Below, piece after piece: positions 2,911-20,440 of a DNA stretch of 20,440 nt. The position numbers were made by a program, and so were the translations under genes. Within the stretch, counting starts at the first letter, position 1, and each line of letters begins with the position of its first letter. Source of the stretch: a virus; IMG/VR virus record IMGVR_UViG_3300044846_005094, positions 1 through 20,440 of that record; one strand, written 5' to 3'. The notes under the pieces are model-generated. The model searched no databases. It saw nothing but the letters and a program-made list of their open reading frames with translations, and was not told the DNA's origin.

Positions 2911-3336
2911 CTACCAATTTCTGCAAGACCAGTATCTAGCAGAGGTTCTATCCTTTGCAGTATGACATCGATGCCTAGCTCTAAATGAACGCCTACGAGC
3001 AGGATTGCTCTTGCGGATTCTCATATTAGGATCGCCGAAGTTGACCTTAACAACGTTGCCTTTGGCATTTTTAACGTAGACTTTAAATTTCTTTACATCG
3101 CCTCGCATTGGTTTGCCTAGTTGTACATTTCTGCCTTGATACTCGGCCTCGTTTAAGTCATTAGTTAATACATTAATATATTCTGGAGATTCGTTACATG
3201 ATTTAATTGTTTCAATTAAACATGCGGAACAATAATTGTCGGTTTCTTTGATACAATTAGGCACCATTCGATCACCTTTTTTCTTCATACCATCTTTTCG
3301 GTATCCATCCCAACATGCTTCATCAATATATTGCAT
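2911..3336 (-). CDS. Conserved phage protein of unknown function, Cys-rich head and basic tail
   Basis: A 141-residue protein. I chose ATG at 3336 rather than the in-frame ATG at 3381. It overlaps the upstream stop as TAATG and has AGGA about 7 nt before it, which suggests translational coupling. The N-terminal part holds CWDGYRKDGMKKKG then VPNC, and a CSAC pair follows. The C-terminal third is strongly basic (NPARRRSFRARHRC, ending ARYWSCRNW). From memory, both modules recur in uncharacterised proteins of marine and freshwater tailed phages; I know no proven function. The Cys/His content could suit zinc binding, but no canonical finger is evident. Confidence 0.78.
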   Translation of the reverse strand: MQYIDEACWDGYRKDGMKKKGDRMVPNCIKETDNYCSACLIETIKSCNESPEYINVLTNDLNEAEYQGRNVQLGKPMRGDVKKFKVYVKNAKGNVVKVNFGDPNMRIRKSNPARRRSFRARHRCHTAKDRTSARYWSCRNW

Positions 3337-4085
3337 TATAGTTCCTGTCTTATTCCTAGTTTTGGAAGATATTTTCTCCAAGTTTTTAATATAAATTCTT
3401 TGTCTTGCAATGTAATAGTATTATCAGATAGCCAAATATCTAAATATTCATTAACAGCATCCTTAAATGGAGTTTTTGATTTTTTTGCTTTAAAATACAG
3501 GCCTTGAATCATTGCTGGTATTTCTTTAGGCAATGTAAAATAGCGAGCGGCAGGCAAATCACCAGATTCAATCCTTGTTCTCATTGCTTGATCAGAATAA
3601 ATAAATTTGCTGTTGATCATGTTCCAACCACTTTGTGTAGCATGTTCAATTTCGTGGCGCAATGTATCTCGTAGTTGCATAGCAATTTCAGATAATATTC
3701 TAGGATATGATTCAGGATTAATTTTAAATCGTATTTCTATCAACGGAAGTTCGTTGGCATGTTTAGTTGTTTGGTTGAATATGTCTCCACCAGAACTAAA
3801 ATTAGGCAAATCTTCAATCCATTGAACTTTAAGTGATAAATAAAATTCTACAGGTATTGTATCATTTTCAATTTCCTCAAAATATATTTTATCTTGTTCA
3901 GCATCATCATTAATATCTGCTAAAGTTTCACCTCGTTTAAAATATATTTTTTCTCCTGCAAACATACCATCTGGATCGGTTGTTGCAGCGTAACTGTCTT
4001 TTATTACTTGAAGTAGTTTGTTTGATAGTGTAGTTATTAAACTATCATAACGGCCTTCAATAATAAGTGATTTCATTGATATCAT
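3336..4085 (-). CDS. HExxH metallopeptidase-like phage protein with capsid-targeting-like N-terminus
   Basis: A 249-residue protein. HEIEH at residues 144-148 lies in a helix-like stretch (LRDTLRHEIEHATQ), and KEIPA at 187-191 is a plausible third zinc ligand (E188), giving a gluzincin-like pattern. The N-terminus MISMKSLIIE followed by GRYDS ends in I-x-E, the cleavage motif of T4-type prohead proteases, and has the 10-residue length of T4 capsid-targeting sequences. ATG 4085 overlaps the upstream TGA by 4 nt; an internal ATG at 4076 would give a 7-residue leader. Its stop overlaps the next start. Similar HExxH proteins occur in marine phages without known targets. Zinc-protein fold likely; activity inferred. 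Confidence 0.75.
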   Translation of the reverse strand: MISMKSLIIEGRYDSLITTLSNKLLQVIKDSYAATTDPDGMFAGEKIYFKRGETLADINDDAEQDKIYFEEIENDTIPVEFYLSLKVQWIEDLPNFSSGGDIFNQTTKHANELPLIEIRFKINPESYPRILSEIAMQLRDTLRHEIEHATQSGWNMINSKFIYSDQAMRTRIESGDLPAARYFTLPKEIPAMIQGLYFKAKKSKTPFKDAVNEYLDIWLSDNTITLQDKEFILKTWRKYLPKLGIRQEL

Positions 4086-5359
4086 ATTAATGTTTTTAAT
4101 TTAATAACAGATTCAGGTGTTAAATGTTTAGTATTTGTCACTTGTTTTTTTAATGATTCTAGTTGTCGGGCTAGTTTATAAATTACTTTTTTATATTCAG
4201 CAGGATTTTCCTGTTTGAATTGATCAAAAAATCTTACAATATCAACGTTTGTTGCAGCACCGGCCGGAGTTCCTGTTAAAATATATGTTGCTGTTGTACC
4301 TAGCTTACCCCGCAATTGAGTCCACATAGTAAATTCAGTTCCTTGTGATGTCCATTGCAAAAGTTGATTTAATGCTGCAAGTGTTTTTTTCTTGCCAGCT
4401 GATTTTAAAATAGTTTGTGTATTAGATGTAATTGATTTTAATATAGGAGCTAAATTTGCAGCTATTTCCCATTGATGATAATAATAATTCTTTTTCCAAT
4501 TCTTTGGAGACCATTTTGCTAATGATATTGCATTATTGTCCCAATATGGTGCATTTGAATCATAGTTACTTGACAATTTAGGCGAAGCAATGGTTGATGG
4601 ATCTTTTAAGTGAGCTATTTCATGAGTCATTACTTTTTTGATATCAGCTAGCTGACCTGTAGATGTTTTAAGAGCATTTAAAGAAAACTGCTCCCAAACT
4701 AGATAGAACACAGTACTATTAGGATTACCAGTATCCCATCCGCGTACGCCTTGACGTATTCCTGGATATATGGTTTTTGCATGTTCATATGGCACTATAA
4801 TAACTGTAATATCTGCATCTCGGTATGTATGCCCTCCAGGAAAACTTACTTTTGGCGTGTATCGTTGTGTACCCTTCTTTAACATCAAATTACTAAACGC
4901 CGACGTTTTACTCGGATTCATGGCTCGTATTTTAAATTTGCTCCCTAATTTTACTTGAAACCCTTTAAATATGTTTATATTAGCGCCAGGATTATTTATA
5001 TTTTTTTGAATTATTTCTGCAGCAGCATCAATAGCTAATATTTCTTGCGCAAGAAATTGAATTCCATGTTTAATAGTAAAATTCATTTTTGCTGGCGCCA
5101 TTACTTCTTGGTAAGCAACTATTTCTTTTTTTAATTGTGGTATTGTAAGTTTACCTTGTTTAATTTGTCGAAGATAATAAACTTGTTTGGATTTTGGAAA
5201 AGATGCCCAAGTTTTAAATAGACCCGGGTCAGTACGTTCCCAGTTAACTATAGTCTTCAATTGTTTAGTATATGTTAAATTCTTAACAATTAATTTTCCA
5301 CCTTTTAATTTTCCACCTTTTCCAAATAGTGATATCAAACGACGTAATAGTTCTTTCAT
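4082..5359 (-). CDS. HExxH metallopeptidase-like protein (425 aa)
   Basis: Numbering here is from the GTG at 5374, which overlaps the upstream stop as GTGA. I prefer ATG 5359 (five residues shorter), because an ATATTTAT element sits just before it. HEIAH at 251-255 (KKVMTHEIAHLKD) followed about 50 residues later by WEIAAN (E303) gives a zincin-like HExxH...E arrangement, as in the gene downstream. The N-terminus is basic, with a KGGKLKGGKL repeat caused by a 15-bp tandem duplication. No signal peptide is seen. The gene overlaps the 249-residue metallopeptidase-like gene by 4 nt, so the two are probably co-translated. No specific family recognised; the substrate could be a phage structural protein or a host protein. 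Confidence 0.72.
   Translation of the reverse strand: MKELLRRLISLFGKGGKLKGGKLIVKNLTYTKQLKTIVNWERTDPGLFKTWASFPKSKQVYYLRQIKQGKLTIPQLKKEIVAYQEVMAPAKMNFTIKHGIQFLAQEILAIDAAAEIIQKNINNPGANINIFKGFQVKLGSKFKIRAMNPSKTSAFSNLMLKKGTQRYTPKVSFPGGHTYRDADITVIIVPYEHAKTIYPGIRQGVRGWDTGNPNSTVFYLVWEQFSLNALKTSTGQLADIKKVMTHEIAHLKDPSTIASPKLSSNYDSNAPYWDNNAISLAKWSPKNWKKNYYYHQWEIAANLAPILKSITSNTQTILKSAGKKKTLAALNQLLQWTSQGTEFTMWTQLRGKLGTTATYILTGTPAGAATNVDIVRFFDQFKQENPAEYKKVIYKLARQLESLKKQVTNTKHLTPESVIKLKTLI
5292..5321. repeat. Perfect 15-bp in-frame tandem duplication
   Basis: The plus-strand unit AATTTTCCACCTTTT occurs at 5292-5306 and again at 5307-5321. Read on the minus strand it encodes KGGKL twice near the N-terminus of the 425-residue metallopeptidase-like protein, keeping the frame. 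Confidence 0.85.
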
Positions 5360-7000: not shown

Positions 7001-7756
7001 CTAAAACATATCGTCCCATGGATTATCTTTAATAGTTTGTTTAGGAGTTGTTGGAACAGATTTTTTATTAGGAACAGGTTTAGTTAATTGAACATATAGT
7101 TTTTGACCAATTTTTATGTTGTCTGAAGTTAATCCGTTGATTTGTTTTAATTGTTGAACCGTAATTTTATATTTTGTTGCTAGTTCCGATAACGTGTCGC
7201 CTGATTTAACTATGTGTGTAGATGACTTATTTATGTTGGTAGTCTGTTTGGCTGCAGCTTGTTTCTTGGTATCAGCTGGTTTATCAATTAGTGTACCAAA
7301 TACATGTCGACCTATAGTTTTAGTCTGAACATAGTCTGGATGTTTTGTGAACCCTAATGAGTCTTTATTAGCTGTTTTAGGATTGTAGTAAAATGTTGCA
7401 CCTAAGGTTATATCTTTAGATGTTATGCTACCAGCACGTAATTGTTTTGCTAGTGGTAATGCATAAGACCATTGATCCGTACGGCCTTGTGCACGTTTTA
7501 ATACATCACCCCATTTTTCAGAACCAGCATTATAATCATTCCACATAGAAAATTGGTATGGTTGTAATACTTGTTTAACCGGGTTAGTTCCCCATCCATT
7601 ATGATTTTCTTTAGCTCTATTATTAATAACATGTGCTACTGCTAACATTCCATTAGAACCTTCGCCGCCTGCTTCTAATACGAGCGTAGTTGCTAATATT
7701 AATTCACTATCGATACGACCAAACTGTTCTATTAATAAATCCTTTAAGCGAATCAT
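7001..7756 (-). CDS. SleB-type cell-wall hydrolase with C-terminal LysM domain (endolysin or virion lysin)
   Basis: A 251-residue protein. Residues 18-155 match the Hydrolase_2/SleB fold: LVLEAGGEGSNGMLAVAHVINNR (25-47) with candidate catalytic E28, PVKQVLQPYQFSMW (59-72), then the ATFYYNP and HVFG segments. A LysM peptidoglycan-binding domain follows at about 180-223 (HIVKSGDTLSELATKY...IKIGQKLYV), then a Pro/Lys-rich tail ending DDMF. SleB enzymes cut glycan strands, commonly as lytic transglycosylases. The N-terminus MIRLKDLLIE followed by Q ends in I-x-E like a capsid-targeting sequence, so it could be a packaged lysin. It is coupled to the previous gene by TAATG and has AAGG upstream. 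Confidence 0.88.
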   Translation of the reverse strand: MIRLKDLLIEQFGRIDSELILATTLVLEAGGEGSNGMLAVAHVINNRAKENHNGWGTNPVKQVLQPYQFSMWNDYNAGSEKWGDVLKRAQGRTDQWSYALPLAKQLRAGSITSKDITLGATFYYNPKTANKDSLGFTKHPDYVQTKTIGRHVFGTLIDKPADTKKQAAAKQTTNINKSSTHIVKSGDTLSELATKYKITVQQLKQINGLTSDNIKIGQKLYVQLTKPVPNKKSVPTTPKQTIKDNPWDDMF

Positions 7757-9201: not shown

Positions 9202-9372
9202 CTATTTGTTTTTATTGATAATAGACCAGATAGCACCCGTTAATGTTAAAACGCCGCCGATACATTCTGTTACAATGGTTTCGTCAACAAGACCTCTTGC
9301 AATAACTATACCACCAATAAACGTTAAAGTATGTCTTACAATACCTAATACTTGTTCTTTTGTCAATTTCAT
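9202..9372 (-). CDS. Holin-like small membrane protein (56 aa)
   Basis: ATG at 9372, TAG at 9202-9204, with AAGGAAT about 6 nt before the start. The protein begins MKLTKEQVLGIVRHTLTFIGG and ends GAIWSIINKNK. Two hydrophobic stretches (about 10-25 and 34-51) flank a short polar loop (ARGLVDETIV). The KEQ-x2-G-x2-RH start and the VTE-x2-GG...GAIWS half match the small Pam3_gp28-like putative holins as I remember them. It sits between an ATATTTAT element and the Cys-rich protein gene. It could form the lysis pore for the SleB-LysM enzyme 1.4 kb downstream. Confidence 0.75.
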   Translation of the reverse strand: MKLTKEQVLGIVRHTLTFIGGIVIARGLVDETIVTECIGGVLTLTGAIWSIINKNK

Positions 9373-10667: not shown

Positions 10668-11084
10668 TTATCGAATACCTTTATGATTGTCGATGCGATC
10701 CAGTATTTGATTTAACACGTCGGCTTTAATAAAACCGCACATTGATGCATTTTTCAATGAACTAATTAATTGGAAAATAATAAATGGTATTAATATTGTT
10801 TCACTCAACCATCCAGTGCCTTTAAACCCTTGTTCAACCAATAAGATTACCGTTAAAAACATGCACCAAACAGCTGCTGTTCTAATAACACTTAATGCTT
10901 TAAATGTTTTAAATCCTTCACGTTTAGCTCCAGCAATTACACCAAAAAATCCATCTAAAAAAACTACGGCAATTAATGCCAAATATTGTTCTGAATATGT
11001 CATTGTTAAATTAAAAAAGTATGTGCAATAAAATGACATGGTTGTTGATATTGATAATATAATTGCTAGTGCTGATGTTTTCAT
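10668..11084 (-). CDS. Phage holin (four-helix, holin_4 type)
   Basis: A 138-residue protein. Hydrophobic segments lie at about 5-25, 33-53, 67-85 and 93-108. The second contains VVFLDGFFGVIAGAKREGF with an Asp and a following basic run, the hallmark of the Phage_holin_4_1 (toxin secretion/phage lysis holin) family. A short charged tail (LNQILDRIDNHKGIR) would face the cytoplasm. It overlaps the L,D-transpeptidase-like gene by 4 nt (ATGA), which suggests a lysis pair: pore plus wall enzyme. Confidence 0.78.
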   Translation of the reverse strand: MKTSALAIILSISTTMSFYCTYFFNLTMTYSEQYLALIAVVFLDGFFGVIAGAKREGFKTFKALSVIRTAAVWCMFLTVILLVEQGFKGTGWLSETILIPFIIFQLISSLKNASMCGFIKADVLNQILDRIDNHKGIR

Positions 11085-11674
11085 TTGATATCCGTTGACT
11101 CAATTAATGTGTATGTAAATGAATTTCCGTGAATGTCTCTTGCTTTGCGACAAATTGTCATAAACTCTTCAAAATCTTTAGATCTTTTAAATACTTGACA
11201 TCCTTCTGACCAATTTTCTACGTAAGTAGAATCTGCGCCGGCTTTGTGGATGTTAATTCCAAAAACACCTTCATCAATTTTGGTTTCATCAAACTTTAAA
11301 TCTTTGTTTGCATCACGATATACTTTAACATTTTTTGATTGACCTAAAGCTTCGTATTTTCCTTGATGTAGTCTAATTGTATGTGATCCTCTATATTGAC
11401 CTTCTACTAAACGTGCAACTCCTTTTGCATTGTGGAATTGTTGAACACCTTTTTTACCTGGGTCAGTTGTATTTGTCCATTCTTTGTATTGCCATTCACC
11501 TCCTACTTTATAGGATACTGTAATAACATCATCAAATGCGTTTGTTACTGTTTGACCTGTTGCTGCGTTCCTAACACCTACGATGTTTACGTCATAATCT
11601 TTTGCTCCTTCAAACCAAACATATCCTTTTGATTTTACTGCTGCTTCTACTTGTTCTTTTGTGTACTTTGCCAT
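11081..11674 (-). CDS. L,D-transpeptidase-like (YkuD-like) wall-active protein, candidate lysin
   Basis: A 197-residue protein. The C-terminal half has GVFGINIHKAG (136-146), then WSEGCQVF (155-162). A conserved His (143) followed by S-x-G-C with C159 is the arrangement of the YkuD L,D-transpeptidase active site. A D-x-N-x-D loop at 121-125 could bind calcium. Landmarks such as NAFDD, TNTTDPG, EGQYRGSHTI and FTYTL recur, as I recall, in phage proteins of Bacteroidota and other hosts. I see no signal peptide, so export would need a holin, and the next gene encodes one with a 4-nt overlap. It might cleave cross-links or muropeptides; the assignment rests on motif shape only. Confidence 0.68.
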   Translation of the reverse strand: MAKYTKEQVEAAVKSKGYVWFEGAKDYDVNIVGVRNAATGQTVTNAFDDVITVSYKVGGEWQYKEWTNTTDPGKKGVQQFHNAKGVARLVEGQYRGSHTIRLHQGKYEALGQSKNVKVYRDANKDLKFDETKIDEGVFGINIHKAGADSTYVENWSEGCQVFKRSKDFEEFMTICRKARDIHGNSFTYTLIESTDIK

Positions 11675-12349: not shown

Positions 12350-12784
12350 TTAAAAATCTTTGTTAATGCCAATTGAAAATGATTTATACGAAGTGCCAAA
12401 CGCAGTTTGTAAAGAATATGAAAATACTGGAGTATATCCTTTTATTCTTGGAAAATTATAATTAATATCATATTCCATGGTAATATCTTTTTTATAAAAA
12501 AACCAACCACCAGCAACAGAAACTGAAAATGGGCCATATATAGGAGATGTAATCATTAACTCTGAATACAAATCTTTTATGTCTAAAGAAAATAGACCAG
12601 TATTAATACCAACAGCAATATCTCCAAAATATTTACCTATCTCAACAGTAGCACCCAATAAGTTTTTTGGATCACTAACTTTTGTATCAAATGCAACATT
12701 TGGGGCAACCATTACGTAGTAGGATGCCTGTGCAATAGCAACTGTGCTAAAACATAAAAATAAGATTGTGATTAGTTTTTTCAT
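12350..12784 (-). CDS. Secreted small outer-membrane beta-barrel-like protein (144 aa)
   Basis: A clear signal peptide starts MKKLITILFLCFSTVAIAQA, with a likely signal peptidase I cut near residue 18-20 and no lipobox Cys. The mature part consists of alternating polar and hydrophobic strands: SYYVMVAPNVAF, LLGATVEIGKYF, IAVGINTGLF, FSVSVAGGWFFYKK, YSLQTAFGTSY. It ends in FSIGINKDF, whose final Phe fits the C-terminal signal of outer-membrane barrels. It is coupled by TAATG to the inner-membrane protein gene upstream. A phage-made outer-membrane protein could block receptors against superinfection or help breach the outer membrane; neither is shown. Confidence 0.72.
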   Translation of the reverse strand: MKKLITILFLCFSTVAIAQASYYVMVAPNVAFDTKVSDPKNLLGATVEIGKYFGDIAVGINTGLFSLDIKDLYSELMITSPIYGPFSVSVAGGWFFYKKDITMEYDINYNFPRIKGYTPVFSYSLQTAFGTSYKSFSIGINKDF

Positions 12785-13500
12785 TATGCTTTTCTAGGTT
12801 TAGCTGCAGGTTTTTTTGCAACTGGTTTGCGGGTTGTTGATTTTTTAGCCGGTGTTGTTTTTGTTCTTCTAACTGGCTTAATAGGTAATTTTTCTTTATT
12901 AAATATTTTTGGGTATATTATAGAACCAAGCATTATAAATGCTAAAGCAATTGCCCCAACCATAAAATGAGAGAATCTTTCTAGTAACGCTATCATTTTC
13001 ATTGTCTCTTCTTGTCCAACTTGAGTTTGTAAATCAAGTAGCCAATTTATATCATTCATGGTTGTATTCATATCAGCGTTGAATCTATCTGAAGTTATAA
13101 TTGATTTTACTTTTATTGTATCGGGTGATGTTAGGATAAAATCAATAGTATTATCCAATTCATTCATTTCAATTTTAACTTTATCAACCATTTTAGATTC
13201 CGAATCTACTAAATATGTGTTGGTGTATTGATTCCATAAAGTATCTCTTTTTATTTTCTCTTCAAGTATAGCGTCGCGATGCTGTTGAATGTTTTGTATG
13301 TTAATATTGGAAGTTGTTATTGCATCTTGTACAGTCGTGCCGTAATAGTCAAAAATGCGAGATAGCGCCGGGACAGGCTTTAATCGATTCTCTAATATAC
13401 TTGTTGCTGATGTAGTGATATTAGACTCGACATATTTTCCGAAACTGGCTATAACAATAATAATACCAGTTAAAATAACCATTAACGTTGTTTGTTTCAT
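12784..13500 (-). CDS. Inner-membrane protein with helical periplasmic domain and basic tail (238 aa)
   Basis: Topology by eye: TM1 at about 5-20, a periplasmic region at about 22-177 that looks entirely helical, TM2 at about 178-198, then a Lys/Arg/Thr/Pro/Ala-rich tail (208-238). The ectodomain start (SATSILENRLKPVPALSRIFDYYG) resembles the four-helix sensor domain of chemoreceptors, but the HAMP and signalling domains are absent. It sits between a LydA-like holin (4-nt ATGA overlap) and an outer-membrane barrel (TAATG overlap). A helical periplasmic arm next to an outer-membrane partner recalls spanin pairs in arrangement, not in sequence. Function unknown. Confidence 0.7.
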   Translation of the reverse strand: MKQTTLMVILTGIIIVIASFGKYVESNITTSATSILENRLKPVPALSRIFDYYGTTVQDAITTSNINIQNIQQHRDAILEEKIKRDTLWNQYTNTYLVDSESKMVDKVKIEMNELDNTIDFILTSPDTIKVKSIITSDRFNADMNTTMNDINWLLDLQTQVGQEETMKMIALLERFSHFMVGAIALAFIMLGSIIYPKIFNKEKLPIKPVRRTKTTPAKKSTTRKPVAKKPAAKPRKA

Positions 13501-13898
13501 TTTGTTTTTCTTGTTGTAGGCTTTCTAGTTGTTCTAGTTGGCGCTTTTTTTATTGATGTAATCTTGCCTGCTCTCGCATTTGAAATAAATTCACCTGGAT
13601 TTTCTGAAAATTTGGTTGATATTTTAATAATACCAGATAATAATTCTGGAGAATTTAATCCTACTAAACCGTAAACTAATGCTTTCCATATAGCTGCAAT
13701 TTCAAACTGTTCTAGGATAAACCATGATATCAAAGATGCTAACATGGCAGCGGCCATGTTATTAATAATTTGTAAGATTGTTTTCTCTTCGGGATTTTTG
13801 CTTGTAGCGACTCGGGCCAACATTCCTGCAGCTCCGATCACTAATACAATCCATCCTCCGCCAATAAATAACGGTATAAATTTTCCTAAATCATCCAT
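13497..13898 (-). CDS. LydA-like holin with basic C-terminal tail (133 aa)
   Basis: Three hydrophobic stretches lie at about 8-28 (IPLFIGGGWIVLVIGAAGML), 45-63 (IINNMAAAMLASLISWFIL) and 69-87 (AIWKALVYGLVGLNSPELL). The motif VYGLVGLNSPELLSGI fits the LydA/holin superfamily III type. The last 25 residues (KITSIKKAPTRTTRKPTTRKTK) are strongly basic; charged cytoplasmic tails are common in holins. The same composition ends the next gene's product. Only 5 nt separate it from the upstream two-helix protein gene. Confidence 0.68.
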   Translation of the reverse strand: MDDLGKFIPLFIGGGWIVLVIGAAGMLARVATSKNPEEKTILQIINNMAAAMLASLISWFILEQFEIAAIWKALVYGLVGLNSPELLSGIIKISTKFSENPGEFISNARAGKITSIKKAPTRTTRKPTTRKTK

Positions 13899-13903
13899 CT
13901 AAA

Positions 13904-14125
13904 CTATTTGTTAATCTTATTTTTTGTGTATTTGTCTAAACTTGTTAATCCTAAACAGCCAAACGCCAACATACCAACGGTTTGCACTAGTATGTCTGAT
14001 GGTTTTACGTCGCCGTGTGAAAATGAATTAGCTAACAATGTAACATTTAAAAAAATAACACATAATAAACCGGATATTCGTTTTGATGATGCGTTGCCTG
14101 ATTCGTCATTTAATAGATTATTCAT
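13904..14125 (-). CDS. Two-helix holin-like protein (73 aa)
   Basis: A polar N-terminus (NDESGNASSKRISG) leads into two hydrophobic segments at about 17-33 (LLCVIFLNVTLLANSF) and 46-61 (LVQTVGMLAFGCLGLT). These are separated by a short polar loop and followed by a basic tail (KYTKNKINK). The S-K-R-x2-G entry into the first helix is common in small phage membrane proteins of holin type. It heads the lysis/membrane block. Start ATG 14125 has AAAGGA 4-5 nt upstream, inside a 9-bp inverted repeat that could control its translation. Confidence 0.68.
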   Translation of the reverse strand: MNNLLNDESGNASSKRISGLLCVIFLNVTLLANSFSHGDVKPSDILVQTVGMLAFGCLGLTSLDKYTKNKINK

Positions 14126-14202: not shown

Positions 14203-15432
14203 TCAGCGTTTACATACAATTAATTGGGATTCTTGGGCAATTAAACTAACAATTGTTATTTGACAATTTCCTAATTTAAATGTTCCTGGTTGCCCAGAGT
14301 CTTGCAATATTTCTGATAGTATTTGTATGTATTGAAAATCCAATTGAGTAAATGTGTTTCCATCAATTGACACAACTATATCATTTTCTCCGGCCGGATC
14401 GTTGTATCCAATACAAAATACACGTTTAGTTAAATCAAATTTGGTATTTGCCTGTTCCGTTTCAATATATGAATCAGTTAATACCTGCATAGCATCATCT
14501 ATATAGATTCGATCACACCATGGCTCTAATGTTTGTAATAAAGTCATATTGCAATTTGTAACTTGAAATGCAATATTATATTTGGGTAATATCCTAGGCA
14601 TCATTAATTCGTCATGTAGAACATTTTGTCCCCACTTTCTCCACCACTCACGAAATTTGATAGCTCGCAACGATTTATATTCTTCTGAATCTTTGGGTTT
14701 ATACCAAATAGTTCCATCTGGCAACGGAATTTCAGCTTCGATTTCAATGCCATCTTTGAATCTACTACCTCTGCAAGTCATATGATATACAAATGAATCG
14801 CGAGATTGAATCAATCCATATCCGGCTAAATGCATACGGTTAAATATATCTGAATCTTCTAATTCCATTGGCGCAAATAAAGGATCATGTCCCCCTATAG
14901 CTTCAAAGTCTGATTTATACATCATCCATGGGGCAAAGATGCCGTTTGTGTGCTTATCTGCATTTGCTTGTTCTAGAACCGCCACTTCTTTTAAAAATGC
15001 ATCACGTTCAAACTCTTCAGGCTCAAATCCAAATGCACGTACATGTTTTTCTGGCCCAGGCGGATGTAATGGTGGTTCAATACGTGTTGCGGCTACAACA
15101 ACACCTGGTTTCATATGTTTCAATGAATTTGGAATATGATTGGTTGTAGTAATCATATCGGCGTGAAGTATACTAAAAATTTCCGTACGGGATAATTCTA
15201 CGCCTTTATCATATAATATAGTATGACCAACACGTTCTGGGCCGTCATTCTTATACTTAACAAAATGTTCTCCCGTTAAAGTTTGGATCCATTCCCATGT
15301 GCCATCGTCAGATGCATCATCCAGTAAAACAATATCATGTTTATCACCATAACAGTCTGTAATTGATTGTACTGCTTGTTGCAAATACTTTAAATTGTTC
15401 CTTGACGGAATTATAAAACTAATTTTATCCAT
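14203..15432 (-). CDS. GT2-family glycosyltransferase with C-terminal extension (409 aa)
   Basis: The GT-A fold starts with ISFIIPSRNNLKYLQQAV. The nucleotide-binding stretch VLLDDASDDGTWEW lies at 35-48. The metal site is of D-x-D type as LHADM (89-93), and the acceptor-side acidic motif is MELEDSDIFNR (189-199). The remaining 150 residues, after the WWRKWGQN segment, include NIAFQVTNCNMTLLQTLEPWCDRIYIDDA and are not part of a usual GT2 domain. They may be an accessory or second domain. It overlaps the upstream gene by 8 nt and is the last gene of the sugar block. Acceptor unknown: virion protein, phage DNA or host glycan. Confidence 0.85.
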   Translation of the reverse strand: MDKISFIIPSRNNLKYLQQAVQSITDCYGDKHDIVLLDDASDDGTWEWIQTLTGEHFVKYKNDGPERVGHTILYDKGVELSRTEIFSILHADMITTTNHIPNSLKHMKPGVVVAATRIEPPLHPPGPEKHVRAFGFEPEEFERDAFLKEVAVLEQANADKHTNGIFAPWMMYKSDFEAIGGHDPLFAPMELEDSDIFNRMHLAGYGLIQSRDSFVYHMTCRGSRFKDGIEIEAEIPLPDGTIWYKPKDSEEYKSLRAIKFREWWRKWGQNVLHDELMMPRILPKYNIAFQVTNCNMTLLQTLEPWCDRIYIDDAMQVLTDSYIETEQANTKFDLTKRVFCIGYNDPAGENDIVVSIDGNTFTQLDFQYIQILSEILQDSGQPGTFKLGNCQITIVSLIAQESQLIVCKR

Positions 15433-16312
15433 TTTGTAAACTTTTTTCTATAATATCAAACATTCTAGTTGATTTAACATGCCCTGTAAAATGAACTATA
15501 TTTGATTTCATCGCTCTATCAATATAACCATCAAAATCATCCCAACATGGAGCAAAGAAATATTTGTCAGTATTTAATATTTTAAATTTAGAACTATATA
15601 ACTGATTCATTAAACTATAAAATGATTGTTCTTGCGTATCAAATACAGTACGTTCCCAACCCCATTTTTCTGTTCCATCTTCCTTATAAATACCGTCAAA
15701 ATCAAATATGCTTAACATAGTATCAAAACCAGATTTAGATAGAAATTCATCAAATAATTTTAAAGATATACCTTGAAAGCCGGCGTTACATCCTAACAAA
15801 TTTATATTGTTAGTTTTTAATATAGATGTTATATCTGTTTGGTATAATTGACAAATTTGGTTAAGTAATGCCTTGTCGCAATTTACGTTATCAGGTTCGT
15901 GTATTCCAAATGATATACGAGCAATTAAACATTCTTGTACTTCTAGAAGATCTACTGTATTAAATATAATATCATATTCATATGTTAACATATAATCATA
16001 CATTTCAACCCTTCGAAGATAATGTCCTATTAAAATATGATAAAAATGTATAAATTTATTAAAATCATATTGCTGCAAATCAATATCATATATCTTAGCA
16101 TATGATTGCATAAATTCTTTTGAATATGTTTTTAAATTTAAATTTAAATCAAGTATCTTAGCAGTCCATTCATCATGATGCAGATCATGATCTAATACGA
16201 TATGAAAATCAAATTGTATGTTCGGAAATGTTTCAATTAATTGTTTCAAACAAAAATATTCATACTTCCCTAATTTATGCCAAAGTCTGGCGACTGCTAT
16301 ATTATTTTTCAT
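15425..16312 (-). CDS. GT8/GT-A-like glycosyltransferase (295 aa)
   Basis: Assigned from shape. It starts IAVARLWHKLGKYEYFCLKQLIETFP, and a helical stretch then leads to YDYMLTYEYDIIFN (105-118), where YEYD stands in the place of the D-x-D. NAGFQGISLKLFDEFL lies near 180, and VHFTGHVKS close to the C-terminus is the His-Gly-Lys ending common in GT8-like enzymes. The central part is rich in Asp/Tyr. No membrane segment. It overlaps both neighbours (11 and 8 nt), consistent with a shared pathway with the RmlD-like reductase before it and the GT2 after it. Confidence 0.7.
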   Translation of the reverse strand: MKNNIAVARLWHKLGKYEYFCLKQLIETFPNIQFDFHIVLDHDLHHDEWTAKILDLNLNLKTYSKEFMQSYAKIYDIDLQQYDFNKFIHFYHILIGHYLRRVEMYDYMLTYEYDIIFNTVDLLEVQECLIARISFGIHEPDNVNCDKALLNQICQLYQTDITSILKTNNINLLGCNAGFQGISLKLFDEFLSKSGFDTMLSIFDFDGIYKEDGTEKWGWERTVFDTQEQSFYSLMNQLYSSKFKILNTDKYFFAPCWDDFDGYIDRAMKSNIVHFTGHVKSTRMFDIIEKSLQNG

Positions 16313-17195
16313 AAAACTCTTTTAAATATTGTGTTAAGCTATCTTGCCATTTATTCATGTAATTTTTTTTCATAACGTTTAATTTAAAATTAATTAGTTT
16401 TTCTGAATATGGTCTTGGGGCAAAGTATTCATGTTTAAAAAATGAACTATCTACTTTGTTTACTTTGATATCTAAATTTAGTAAATCAATCATTTTAACT
16501 GCAACATCATATCTACTAGCATTGCCATTACTAACCATATTATAAATTCCATAGTCTAAACCTTCCGTTGTGTGCCGATATATAGAATTAGCAAAGTCAC
16601 CGGTATATGTAGGAGTACCTAATTTATCATCAACAACATTTAATTCAGTTGCACCATTTTCAAGTTGTTTGAATATTTTAGCTACGAATTTTTTATCTTT
16701 TTTACTGCCACCTCCCATCATCCAACCAGCTCTAAAGATCCAGGCATTATCATATTCTAAAATAGAATTTTCAGCGTAGACTTTACTTTTTGCATATATG
16801 CTTAAAGGGTCTGGTTTATCAAAATCAGCAAATACATCTTGTTCTCCGCCAAATACTCCTGCGGTGCTAATAAATACATATGGAATATTTAATTCTTTTG
16901 ATAGTTCCATTAAAAAAATAGCTCCCATTGTATTTGTAGCAAAACAATTATCATAATTAACTTCGCATTCTTCTAAATCAGTTAATGCTGCTAAATTTAA
17001 TATGATGTCTGGATTAAAATCTTTGATTTGTTTTCTAATAGCCGTATAGTCTCGAATATCACCATACTGTAACCATTCTTCGTTAACGTCAATATCAGTT
17101 GCTAATATTTCACAATCTGCTTGTTTATATTTGTTATAAACATATGATCCTAGCATACCGCCGGCACCCGCAATATAAACTTTATTATATTTCAT
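16302..17195 (-). CDS. RmlD-like sugar-nucleotide reductase (SDR family)
   Basis: A 297-residue protein. A Rossmann entry VYIAGAGGMLGSYVY (6-20) carries the dinucleotide-binding GxxGxxG. NLAALTDLEECE (67-78) is close to the RmlD signature. S110/T111 with YAKSK (Y134, K138) gives the SDR catalytic set, and RAGWMMGGG follows. RmlD reduces dTDP-4-keto-rhamnose to dTDP-rhamnose; related enzymes act on other nucleotide sugars. No RmlA, B or C is seen in the window, so the substrate probably comes from the host or from genes outside it. It has its own promoter-like element, with the -10 box only 5 nt before the ATG. Confidence 0.83.
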   Translation of the reverse strand: MKYNKVYIAGAGGMLGSYVYNKYKQADCEILATDIDVNEEWLQYGDIRDYTAIRKQIKDFNPDIILNLAALTDLEECEVNYDNCFATNTMGAIFLMELSKELNIPYVFISTAGVFGGEQDVFADFDKPDPLSIYAKSKVYAENSILEYDNAWIFRAGWMMGGGSKKDKKFVAKIFKQLENGATELNVVDDKLGTPTYTGDFANSIYRHTTEGLDYGIYNMVSNGNASRYDVAVKMIDLLNLDIKVNKVDSSFFKHEYFAPRPYSEKLINFKLNVMKKNYMNKWQDSLTQYLKEFYEK

Positions 17196-17200
17196 ATTAT

Positions 17201-17229
17201 ATTATATAATTTTTTATTCATTAATCCAA
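17201..17229 (-). promoter_or_regulatory. Sigma70-like promoter before the RmlD-like gene
   Basis: On the minus strand, TTGGAT (17229-17224), a 17-nt spacer and TATAAT (17206-17201), then ATAAT and ATG at 17195. The -35 box forms the last two codons of the upstream glycosyltransferase gene. The layout matches 6958-6986 almost base for base around the -10 box. Confidence 0.65.
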
Positions 17230-18144
17230 ATAATGTAATCTTATAATTTTCATTAGTTCTTGCATTCGCACTAACCATGTATGCGATGTTTCTACAATCT
17301 GTCTTGCATTTTCAGCTTTTTGTTCTCGCTCATTATCATGATGTAAATAATATTCAAATAATTCTAGCCAATTTGATTCATCTCCAAGTACTATGTTACC
17401 ATCAAATAATGTTTCTACTAATGGATGATCACATAATTGAAAATTTCCAGATAATGCAATATTGTAAACTGATTGATTTAAATCAATTCTATCATAATGT
17501 TCACCCAAATTTGGTTTTTGATATGGAACATGAAAATTTAAATTAATTTTTGTTGCATTTCTAATGATGTTATGTTCTTGATATGGTATAAATCCATTTT
17601 GATATTTTCCATATGTCATTCCGCCCAATATGCATGCATATTGATCATTATCTAATATCGGATATAAAAATTTGTCTTCACTTCGGTATCCGTGTGATAA
17701 ATTACCAATGAAACACGCATCATATAATTTAGGCGTATCAATTTTATAAAATAATCTATGGTTGGCTGCTAATGGCACACTATACAAGTTAAATCCGTTA
17801 GCTTTATAATTCTGCATTAAACTAGGACATTTATGTTGAGTTGTTATAAAAAAATCAACAATATCCTGAAATAATACATAATTGTTTCGCCACATATCTC
17901 CTGCACCAATTATTTTACAATTTGGAAATTTTAACTTAAATTGTTCAAATTGTTTTAAATAGTCGAATGAATCTGGTATGCCCGCGTATATTAATATGTC
18001 TACTTCTTCGTTAATTTCTAAAATAGAATGTTCCGGAATTGGTAAATATGAAACATCATGTCCTAAATCTTGTAATCCATAATACCATTCTAATAATATT
18101 GGAGTAGCGTGATGTATTGTATCACATAAAACTATTTTATTCAT
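17221..18144 (-). CDS. GT-B glycosyltransferase, CgeB-like (307 aa)
   Basis: The N-terminal Rossmann-like half begins MNKIVLCDTIHHATPILLEWYYGLQDLGHDV. The second half begins around DACFIGNLSHGYR (142-154), the pattern FxGxxxxxR typical of CgeB/Glyco_trans_1_2 proteins. It continues with RIDLNQSVYNIALSGNFQLCDH, where the nucleotide-sugar site lies, LVETLFDGNIVLGD, and a C-terminal helix ending in the ARQIVETSHTW segment. CgeB-type enzymes lack the D-x-D and act on polysaccharides or surface layers. It overlaps the methyltransferase gene by 8 nt. Confidence 0.8.
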   Translation of the reverse strand: MNKIVLCDTIHHATPILLEWYYGLQDLGHDVSYLPIPEHSILEINEEVDILIYAGIPDSFDYLKQFEQFKLKFPNCKIIGAGDMWRNNYVLFQDIVDFFITTQHKCPSLMQNYKANGFNLYSVPLAANHRLFYKIDTPKLYDACFIGNLSHGYRSEDKFLYPILDNDQYACILGGMTYGKYQNGFIPYQEHNIIRNATKINLNFHVPYQKPNLGEHYDRIDLNQSVYNIALSGNFQLCDHPLVETLFDGNIVLGDESNWLELFEYYLHHDNEREQKAENARQIVETSHTWLVRMQELMKIIRLHYLD

Positions 18145-18736
18145 ACTTTGCTACGATTTCATCCCACGATAAAATATTAATTAAATCCATACGATATTCA
18201 TTTAAAAAATCAAAAGTAGGTTGTACAGTTAAATTATGAGGTTGTTGTTGTCCTCGTCTAACAATACCACAAAATGATGAATAAATTCCATGCATATCTA
18301 AATCAGATCTAGTACCTCGTAGTTCCGCAAATACTTCCCACGCATTATGGCAAAAATGTGCTTGTAATAATTCTTCAAAGAATGGATTGATATCATCCAT
18401 TATAATAGTTCCATTTTCATTTAAATGTTCCAATGAATTATTAAAATCTTTTAGTACTTGAGTTTTTTCATGAGATGCATCAATAAAAATAATATCCCAT
18501 TTTACATCTTTACCCACTGAATCAAAATAATCATCTGTTGTCATAAGATGTGTCGGTAAACATCCAGGATCAATATCGACTCCTTCTTTTAACATACAAT
18601 TAATATGATTAAATGTATTTGTTTTGTCTCGTACCCCTAATTCTAAATACGAGTCGTATTTAAATTTTTCTATAAAAAAATTAATAATTGGGTGATACGG
18701 TTGGTTAGTCAATTTAGACCAATCTGTGTTTTTCAT
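18137..18736 (-). CDS. Class I SAM-dependent methyltransferase (199 aa)
   Basis: Motif I is YLELGVRD (30-37), motif II is GVDIDP (52-57), and WDIIFIDASHEKTQVLKDF (80-98) with the IIMDDINP strand (111-118) gives the Methyltransf_24-like pattern. FIDASHE followed by a DD pair is usual in O-methyltransferases of glycan clusters, with metal bound by the acidic residues. It lies between two glycosyltransferase genes with 8- and 4-nt overlaps, so sugar methylation (capping or decorating a glycan) is the likeliest role. An SD-like AAGGA precedes the ATG. DNA methylation is unlikely: no DPPY-type or PC motif. Confidence 0.8.
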   Translation of the reverse strand: MKNTDWSKLTNQPYHPIINFFIEKFKYDSYLELGVRDKTNTFNHINCMLKEGVDIDPGCLPTHLMTTDDYFDSVGKDVKWDIIFIDASHEKTQVLKDFNNSLEHLNENGTIIMDDINPFFEELLQAHFCHNAWEVFAELRGTRSDLDMHGIYSSFCGIVRRGQQQPHNLTVQPTFDFLNEYRMDLINILSWDEIVAKYE

Positions 18737-19371
18737 TCTAATCCTTCTTTAATATAAATTTGTTCCCATCCTTCAGAAATTCTACCGCCAATTCGAACAA
18801 AGTTAAAATACATATGTTCGTTTCGTTTTTTCAATAAAATTAAAGGATCTAATGTTTTTGTAAATACATTGCCTTCGACTTCAAAGTTCCATGGTGAATA
18901 TTCTGATTTCATTACTTTTTTAAGATATTCAGTTTTCCATATGGATGGCTGTACTGAATTTAAATAATCACTATGATTTTTAAATTTATACAAATCATTA
19001 GTAACATGTTCTAAATAATATACAGGTTCGCCATAATCAATATCCATCATGATTTTGTCAGCGTTGTATTGTTCTAATATTTTAATATGTTCTTGTACAA
19101 ATTCTTCTGTAAATGTTTCTGTTAAATAATAATCATCGAGAATAAAGAATGTATATTCCGTATCAATTTCATCTAATGCTTTAAGCATTCGTTCACCCCA
19201 TTGCAATTGTCCTGGTGTGATTGTTTTATATAAATCATTATCATATGTTAATGTTTCGCTAACTAAATAATTTGCAGTTTTTAATTGCCAATATCTTTGA
19301 AATAAAATATCAAAGTTTTTCCATAATGGCGAATATGAATCGCAAGTTCCTATTAGTACCGATATATTCAT
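18733..19371 (-). CDS. GT-A-like glycosyltransferase (212 aa)
   Basis: A short protein starting MNISVLIGTCDSYSPLWKNFDILFQRYW. GQLQWGERMLKALDEIDTEY (54-73) leads to FFILDDYYLTE (75-85), where LDDYY serves as the metal motif. QPSIWKTEYL near 141-150 and SPWNFEVEGN complete the pattern of a protein family I recall from capsule clusters and phages. It is shorter than a full GT2, lacking an extended acceptor domain. The 4-nt overlaps on both sides place it in the same translational chain. Confidence 0.72.
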   Translation of the reverse strand: MNISVLIGTCDSYSPLWKNFDILFQRYWQLKTANYLVSETLTYDNDLYKTITPGQLQWGERMLKALDEIDTEYTFFILDDYYLTETFTEEFVQEHIKILEQYNADKIMMDIDYGEPVYYLEHVTNDLYKFKNHSDYLNSVQPSIWKTEYLKKVMKSEYSPWNFEVEGNVFTKTLDPLILLKKRNEHMYFNFVRIGGRISEGWEQIYIKEGLE

Positions 19372-20135
19372 AATCTAGCTTTTGGTTTAATTTGTCGTAT
19401 ACGATGTTCAACTTCTTTTTGTAATGTAACTCTATTGTTTGATTCTGATTCTAAATCTTCTGATATATTATAAACATATAATGGTTCATCTACTCGAAAT
19501 ATTCTAGATTTCCCTGCTAACTCAACTAATGGCATACACAATGCAAAATCTGCAGCTGCGTTGAAATAGTTGCCTGTTTCCGGATCAATTAAATCAGCAT
19601 CTGTAATATTATCTAATAAAAATGCTTTATATGTTTTTAAATGGCTATATGGAAATGTATGTGTTCTATATGAATTAGATGCATCAACTTGTGAATCTAA
19701 ATGTAATTGATAATGGCCTCCTAATTCTCCCGACGGATAATGTATATACTGACCATATGTCATCCATATATTATCATTTTGGTAAACTTGATTTAAATAT
19801 TGTAAAACAAATGAATGCAATAACCAATCATCACCATCAATCTCTACAATGATATCATCTGGATCTATTTTTCCTATATCTTTAAGATGTTTATACGTTC
19901 CCATAAAACAATTTAAGAAACAACCAGGATTTGGATTTTGATATATTAAAAAATTAGTACTATTCCTAACAGCATCTGTTAAATGTTCTAATGTATCATC
20001 TGTTGATTCGTCATACCCATATGCTGTTAAATAATTTGAATAACTTTGTTGTTTAATGCTATTAACATTGAATCTAACCCATTTACTTTTATTATAAACA
20101 GTTGATATGATTATAAATTTATTTTGCTTTTCCAT
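19368..20135 (-). CDS. GT2-family glycosyltransferase (255 aa)
   Basis: The GT-A start is FIIISTVYNKSKWVRFNVNSIKQQ. AYGYDESTDDTLE (38-50) takes the place of the usual DDGSTD. The metal motif is IVEIDGDDWL (96-105). MTYGQYIHYPSG and YFNAAADFALCMPLVELAG form the acceptor half, and LYVYNISE the exit strand. It is a complete short GT2 without membrane helices. It overlaps the GT-B gene upstream by 25 nt and the next gene by 4 nt. Sugar and acceptor cannot be read from sequence. Confidence 0.85.
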   Translation of the reverse strand: MEKQNKFIIISTVYNKSKWVRFNVNSIKQQSYSNYLTAYGYDESTDDTLEHLTDAVRNSTNFLIYQNPNPGCFLNCFMGTYKHLKDIGKIDPDDIIVEIDGDDWLLHSFVLQYLNQVYQNDNIWMTYGQYIHYPSGELGGHYQLHLDSQVDASNSYRTHTFPYSHLKTYKAFLLDNITDADLIDPETGNYFNAAADFALCMPLVELAGKSRIFRVDEPLYVYNISEDLESESNNRVTLQKEVEHRIRQIKPKARL

Positions 20136-20440
20136 ATATCAATATTATAATATTTTTTGTAATTTTCTAATGCAGTAAAACTGCATTTGTTATAAAAATC
20201 TTGATCATCTCGTAATCGAATTGCTAACTTTCTAGCAGATTCTAAATCATTAACATTGACTGCTAAATCTGGGTGACAAAGTCTTTGTGTATCAACATGT
20301 TGATTTCCAATACAAGGAATTCCAAAATAGGCACAATTTAAACTAAATGTTCCAGCAGCTACTGTTGGCATCAGATGAATTGCATATTTAAATGTACTTA
20401 ATTGTTGCATCCATTCAATCCATGTTACTCTTGGTAAATG
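20111..20440 (-). CDS. GT-B glycosyltransferase, C-terminal fragment (window edge)
   Basis: The frame stays open to the right edge (110 codons visible), so the true start is outside the window; the ATG at 20410 is internal. The visible end, IHLMPTVAAGTFSLNCAYFGIPCIGNQHVDTQ, then LAVNVNDLESARKLAIRLRDD, is the C-terminal nucleotide-sugar-binding domain of GT4-like enzymes. The segment corresponds to the glycine-rich donor loop, followed by a helix listing the D-x-E-x-A pattern. It is the first gene seen of the sugar block. Confidence 0.72.
   Translation of the reverse strand, partial: HLPRVTWIEWMQQLSTFKYAIHLMPTVAAGTFSLNCAYFGIPCIGNQHVDTQRLCHPDLAVNVNDLESARKLAIRLRDDQDFYNKCSFTALENYKKYYNIDIWKSKINL

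Follow-up and report, generated by a model that had tools for sequence, protein, structure and literature searches.

Among the closest described counterparts of the genes reported here are the spanins. For about 13% of the genomes it covered, among them phages of Bacteroidota hosts, an analysis of spanins (Kongari 2018, PMC6139136) identified none, and it raised the idea that 'an OMP could act as an o-spanin'. According to a 2025 survey (PMC12596118), Bacteroidetes phages use unimolecular spanins only. The question arises of how phages without recognisable spanins get through this membrane at lysis. At the inner membrane, RI–T of phage T4 offers a precedent for a periplasmic holin regulator (PMC8385771).

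Here we describe a set of three genes, termed HOL, ARM and BAR, that is conserved in many contigs of uncultured phages and was previously undescribed. It is best explained as a cassette for lysis carried by tailed Bacteroidota phages. The cassette bears on the question of outer-membrane breach, and it supplies a concrete gene set with which the OMP-spanin idea and the holin-regulator alternative can be tested in E. coli.

Lysis genes of the window

The cassette was analysed in a 20,440-base IMG/VR fragment (the window), for which a megablast search against cultured phages returned no match. The following features are relevant.

7001..7756, minus strand: SleB-type hydrolase with LysM, candidate endolysin (PF07486 9e-15, PF01476 1.7e-16)
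9202-9372, minus strand: 56-aa holin of the Pam3 gp28 family (PF23987 1e-15)
10668..11084, minus strand: second holin, Phage_holin_4_1 (PF05105 1.6e-6, above cut-off)
11081..11674, minus strand: L,D-transpeptidase-like protein, likely cell-wall enzyme and candidate endolysin-associated gene (SEGC motif identified by eye)
12350..12784, minus strand: BAR, 144 aa, signal peptide and predicted eight-stranded barrel (AlphaFold2, fold matches), facultative third gene
12784..13500, minus strand: ARM, 238 aa, two-TM protein with four-helix-bundle ectodomain (PF12729 and structural matches)
13497..13898, minus strand: HOL, 133 aa, holin-family protein (phrog_6384 'holin'), ATGA overlap with ARM
13904..14125, minus strand: 73-aa two-TM protein of cluster c3, the second small membrane protein of the cassette (cluster found near the triad in 24/25 lineages)
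14203-20410, minus strand: run of glycosyltransferase-, epimerase- and methyltransferase-like genes, from reading the sequence, directly upstream of the lysis block

Bacteroidota are the likely hosts of the window phage, since the holin at 10668..11084 shares 59% identity with the one annotated in Flavobacterium phage immuto, and the cell-wall gene about 50% with its counterpart in Bacteroides phages (the DAC16 protein). The product of this cell-wall gene matches phrog_3000 (5.6e-37) and the endolysin family phrog_33083 (1.3e-11). Comparison of the 73-aa c3 protein with Pfam and PHROGs assigned no function to it.

HOL combines hydrophobic segments with a very basic C-terminal tail. The holin profile phrog_6384 was matched by all 19 HOL family members compared (best 3.4e-8, a profile match), the window protein by itself giving a weak match (0.0052). 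By profile, TM segments and basic tail, HOL is a member of this family and a predicted holin. At least three holin-like genes are present in the window, those at 10668-11084 and 9202-9372 among them, and the main holin may be one other than HOL. The 3' end of HOL overlaps the start of ARM by four bases (ATGA).

ARM has hydropathy peaks at residues 6-24 and 179-197, which enclose an ectodomain of about 155 residues, and the AlphaFold model of this ectodomain is all helical (mean pLDDT 74.6, pTM 0.58; the models of ARM and BAR were built from 11 sequences each). The Pfam family 4HB_MCP_1 (PF12729) was detected in ARM at 1.6e-9 (38 bits, against a curated cut-off of 27) and, at E 0.01, in 15 of 19 relatives. 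Among structures, the model is closest to the ligand-binding domain of MCP2201 (Z 15.8, 2.0 angstrom over 125 residues), followed by the sensor and TM helices of NarQ (Z 12.9) and by QseE from the QseE–QseG complex (Z 12.0). By sequence family and predicted fold, ARM thus belongs to the 4HB_MCP sensory domains. A chemoreceptor or sensor kinase would carry a cytoplasmic HAMP and a signalling or kinase domain; none of these was found in ARM, in which TM2 is followed by about 40 mostly basic, lysine/arginine-rich residues. Two scans of GTDB genomes found no ARM.

The start of BAR and the stop of ARM share base 12784 in a TAATG junction. The BAR model consists of a signal peptide followed by eight strands in residues 22-143 (AlphaFold2, mean pLDDT 87) and has no periplasmic domain; the final residue is F144. 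Its fold resembles the N-domain of OprF (Z 16.1) and OmpA (Z 15.1), and many phage barrels in BFVD resemble it, while Pfam and PHROG gave no family match for the sequence. With signal peptide, strands and C-terminal aromatic residue all present, BAR is predicted to be an OmpA/OprF-like outer-membrane barrel. Each of these features had been anticipated by the original prediction: two membrane segments around a helical region of about 155 residues in a 238-residue protein, a chemoreceptor-like ectodomain lacking any signalling part, and a TAATG-coupled barrel with signal peptide and terminal Phe.

Low dN/dS values (HOL 0.08 and ARM 0.11, relatives at 75-80% protein identity; BAR 0.05-0.07, relatives at 85-87%) indicate that these genes are under purifying selection and are not chance open reading frames.

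Conservation of the cassette

Close relatives were collected, profile scans followed, and the loci were collapsed to 25 lineages at 90% ARM identity. The contigs are mostly fragments and loci from the same contig recur, so counts are given by lineage rather than by locus where possible. The order HOL-ARM-BAR was found in all 25 lineages, one of which has an additional gene of 132 aa separating ARM from BAR. Endolysin genes stand beside the triad, encoding GH19 enzymes in 11 lineages, M15 peptidases in nine and amidases in two others. The placement of the genes in a lysis block, as originally proposed, is therefore solid, with a holin-family gene directly upstream and endolysins of several types adjoining in most lineages.

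HOL and ARM were present together and adjacent at 133 of the 135 loci listed in two scans, the remaining two being cut by contig ends; the scans kept the best 80 matches, for HOL out of 198 relatives, and distant HOL genes without ARM may exist. The distance between the two genes ranged from -4 to +5 bases in 21/22 lineage representatives. BAR, among the matches listed in the HOL-side scan, was missing after ARM in 5/22 ARM lineages (85% clusters). In the reverse direction, among the matches listed in the BAR-side scan, ARM and HOL were present at 64/64 BAR loci with room for them (three others were cut by contig ends), and BAR was never seen without ARM. Judged by these loci, BAR needs HOL-ARM, and not the reverse. 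A BAR profile run over the whole BAR-less records, a search without positive control, gave no match.

Divergence followed the same pattern. Across 19 lineages, pairwise divergence was correlated most strongly between HOL and ARM (r=0.89), less between ARM and BAR (0.63) and least between HOL and BAR (0.49). Relative to the window, lineage L032 has 75% identity in ARM and 35% in BAR, whereas L102 has 87% in BAR and 44% in ARM, mismatches which indicate that barrels have been exchanged between ARM types. The evidence thus ties ARM more firmly to the holin HOL than to BAR. HOL and ARM form an obligate pair, and BAR is facultative. The original prediction had taken ARM and BAR as the unit and expected them to co-occur in related phages. 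Co-occurrence is indeed strong, in that BAR was never seen without ARM among the matches listed, but the data do not support ARM and BAR as the unit, since HOL and ARM are inseparable whereas BAR is absent from some ARM lineages and exchanged between ARM types.

Within the proteins, conservation of ARM peaks in TM1, TM2 and the membrane-proximal stretches (0.76, 0.75, 0.72, 0.64) and is lowest in the distal half (0.50). In BAR, the extracellular loops and strands are better conserved than the periplasmic turns, which are its least conserved parts (0.42, 0.26, 0.46). These regional values are averages over few sequences. Variable turns facing a variable distal half are the opposite of what a bridging interface predicts, and the pattern, read from alignments, argues against a specific periplasmic ARM-BAR interface.

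No credible counterpart was found in cultured phages by tblastn with ARM and BAR, or with relatives of HOL, ARM and BAR; two weak tblastn matches inside a Klebsiella phage DNA polymerase were judged not credible. The HOL, ARM and BAR profiles found nothing in the lysis regions of Harreka, immuto and phi14:2.

Spanins and other outer-membrane candidates

The original prediction had noted that no classical spanin is visible, which holds for the window: no open reading frame with a lipobox occurs in any frame. The scan used a hand-made regular expression which, on the lambda control, recovered Rz1 and Bor along with three likely false positives. It was also negative in five related contigs (G005, G006, G007, G009 and G010). 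The Rz family PF03245 was absent from ten related contigs, which is weak evidence as spanin sequences diverge strongly. The search for a spanin elsewhere had a mixed outcome, negative in the window and positive in one related genome, where a u-spanin-like gene was found. That genome, G004, is probably complete, because it has a 127-base terminal repeat, and its triad lies at 36,635-38,165. This gene and further candidates from related lineages are listed below.

G004 (IMGVR_UViG_3300042374_000295) 3170-3610, minus strand: lipoprotein of 146 aa, u-spanin-like, with a TM at its C-terminus, distant from the lysis cassette
L223 5931-6257 and 6166-6633, plus strand: overlapping gene pair X/Y after the endolysin, out-of-frame overlap of 92 bases
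L181 14019-14369 and 14281-14682 (Flavobacterium phage immuto KNV73_gp187/gp186): X/Y pair with a C-terminal TM helix in Y in place of strands
L182 12509-13087 (Cellulophaga phage phi14:2 g076): N-terminal TM, DTV-rich stalk and OMP-like C-terminal strands, beside lysis genes
L102 5063-5671 and L023 2856-3434: N-terminal TM, DTV-rich stalk and OMP-like C-terminal strands, beside lysis genes

A second scan, on the cassette strand, required a signal peptide or N-terminal TM together with an OMP-like or TM C-terminus. It retrieved only BAR in G001, G003, G007 and G008, and its negatives are incomplete, as it missed BAR in G005, G006, G009 and G010, where the protein has three extra C-terminal residues. 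Simple lipoproteins also occur in G001, G003 and G008, which leaves G007 as the only one of the four where no outer-membrane candidate besides BAR was recognised; at 36.6 kb, G007 is the largest record belonging to the window's lineage. Small lipoprotein genes were observed directly downstream of BAR in G003 (63489-63692) and directly downstream of ARM in L218 (~5170-5349), where BAR is missing.

Other spanin-like genes exist in several related lineages, namely c9 and c10 (N-terminal TM, beta-rich C-termini) and the X/Y pair. X has an N-terminal TM and a coiled coil; Y has a signal peptide, a coiled coil and about four C-terminal strands ending YNLF or YKIF. The pair was found at about 48 further loci and is common in Bacteroidota phages without ARM. 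From its sequence, X/Y looks like a two-component spanin with a strand-based outer anchor, and it is perhaps a better candidate for an OMP-type o-spanin than BAR; the immuto pair provides a tractable test system in a cultured phage. The DTV-stalk proteins are possible single-chain linkers between inner and outer membrane.

At loci carrying both ARM and the strand-ending Y (Y-beta), BAR was found in 0/19 cases. We considered ARM as the inner partner of Y-beta in the BAR-less lineages and rejected it, since Y is always accompanied by an X of its own and X/Y pairs without ARM are widespread. BAR as an outer anchor needed by the Y that ends in a TM helix was also discarded as not general, since such loci without ARM show no barrel nearby.

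Proposed function and comparison with known systems

Our preferred reading, held tentatively and at somewhat less than even likelihood, is that HOL and ARM work as one lysis unit in the inner membrane, ARM being the regulator of the holin and BAR an outer-membrane add-on. HOL and ARM would sit side by side in the inner membrane, the four-helix bundle projecting into the periplasm, and ARM would act on HOL through the membrane segments, as a brake or a trigger of holin firing. BAR, made from the same message, would insert in the outer membrane, where its late, lysis-related job would require HOL-ARM to be present and not a tight fit between ARM and BAR. A regulatory role is suggested by a sensory ectodomain that lacks cytoplasmic output and is fixed beside a holin. 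The HOL-ARM unit is supported by adjacency, linked divergence, the conserved TM and membrane-proximal parts of ARM and the BAR-less lineages, although a shared operon would likewise produce linked HOL-ARM divergence.

A spanin-like bridge, in which ARM as inner and BAR as outer partner join after endolysin action and disrupt or fuse the outer membrane, BAR being a barrel o-spanin, seems rather unlikely. The position in the cassette, the gene coupling and the strict dependence of BAR on ARM speak for it, and a physical ARM-BAR pair would explain this dependence equally well. So do G007, where no frame holds a lipobox and BAR is the only recognised outer-membrane candidate, the lack of BAR at ARM-bearing Y-beta loci, as if outer-membrane parts substituted for one another, and the OMP proposal and spanin-less Bacteroidota phages of Kongari 2018 (PMC6139136). 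Against a bridge stand the variable surfaces that would have to meet, the swapping of BAR types between ARM types, the occurrence of ARM without BAR, and the coexistence of the triad with the u-spanin-like gene of G004 and, in several lineages, with spanin-like genes of other kinds. Furthermore, the modelled ectodomain, about 40 helix residues or 60 angstrom tall, would be too short for an intact periplasm, and neither protein has a periplasmic cysteine (ARM has none at all; the single cysteine of BAR is inside the signal peptide). That ARM and BAR represent the first spanin-type breaker with a barrel as outer and a repurposed chemoreceptor ectodomain as inner component is unlikely. If true, a barrel-based spanin would account for the breach of the outer membrane in some lipoprotein-free phages; as far as we know it would be new, as would a holin with a four-helix-bundle sensory ectodomain as its partner.

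The better conserved loops and strands of BAR suggest that its outward-facing side may be important. Phages often encode outer-membrane barrels without an assigned role (as in BFVD), and the annotated lambda Lom is a precedent for a phage-encoded outer-membrane protein. BAR might occupy or block a surface receptor late in infection, for superinfection exclusion or masking, with ARM and HOL as mere operon neighbours. We regard this as distinctly unlikely: an independent exclusion gene would not be expected to require ARM and HOL, expression together with lysis genes would come late for exclusion, and the loops are conserved across many phages, unlike the varied receptors to be expected. A signalling route, with BAR sensing an outer-membrane event such as superinfection and relaying it through the ARM ectodomain to HOL for lysis inhibition, fits the sensory family of ARM, its structural match to QseE, a 4HB kinase whose partner QseG is an outer-membrane lipoprotein, and the one-way dependence of BAR on ARM. 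It is very unlikely nevertheless, as it meets the same poorly conserved facing surfaces as the bridge, no ligand or signal is known for it, and BAR has no periplasmic domain.

As in the two-component spanins (lambda Rz/Rz1; Kongari 2018, PMC6139136), adjacent coupled genes inside a holin-endolysin cassette encode a putative inner-membrane protein, the periplasmic part of which is predicted to be helical, and a predicted outer-membrane protein. An i-spanin is a type II inner-membrane protein with one TM, at the N-terminus, and a coiled coil, whereas ARM combines two TMs with a four-helix bundle; an o-spanin is a lipobox lipoprotein, whereas BAR is modelled as an eight-stranded barrel. ARM also occurs without BAR, and the two proteins lack periplasmic cysteines for intermolecular disulfides. 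Such cysteines are absent from about 4% of known two-component spanin pairs. Neither ARM nor BAR resembles a unimolecular spanin, which combines an N-terminal lipobox and a C-terminal TM in one chain.

The likeness to the T4 holin T and antiholin RI (PMC8385771) is one of functional analogy only, namely the proposed periplasmic regulation of a holin; RI is periplasmic with a cleavable signal peptide, whereas ARM carries two TMs and a 4HB domain. With the 4HB_MCP ectodomains of MCP2201, NarQ and QseE, ARM shares the PF12729 family, the fold and two TMs flanking the bundle, but unlike these receptors and kinases it has no HAMP, kinase or methyl-accepting part, and instead a short lysine/arginine-rich tail and a holin as neighbour. 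BAR shares predicted fold, signal peptide and C-terminal Phe with the eight-stranded barrels (OprF N-domain, OmpA, OmpX/Ail and lambda Lom), from which it differs in its short loops, in matching no Pfam or PHROG family, and in its fixed position after the holin-ARM pair.
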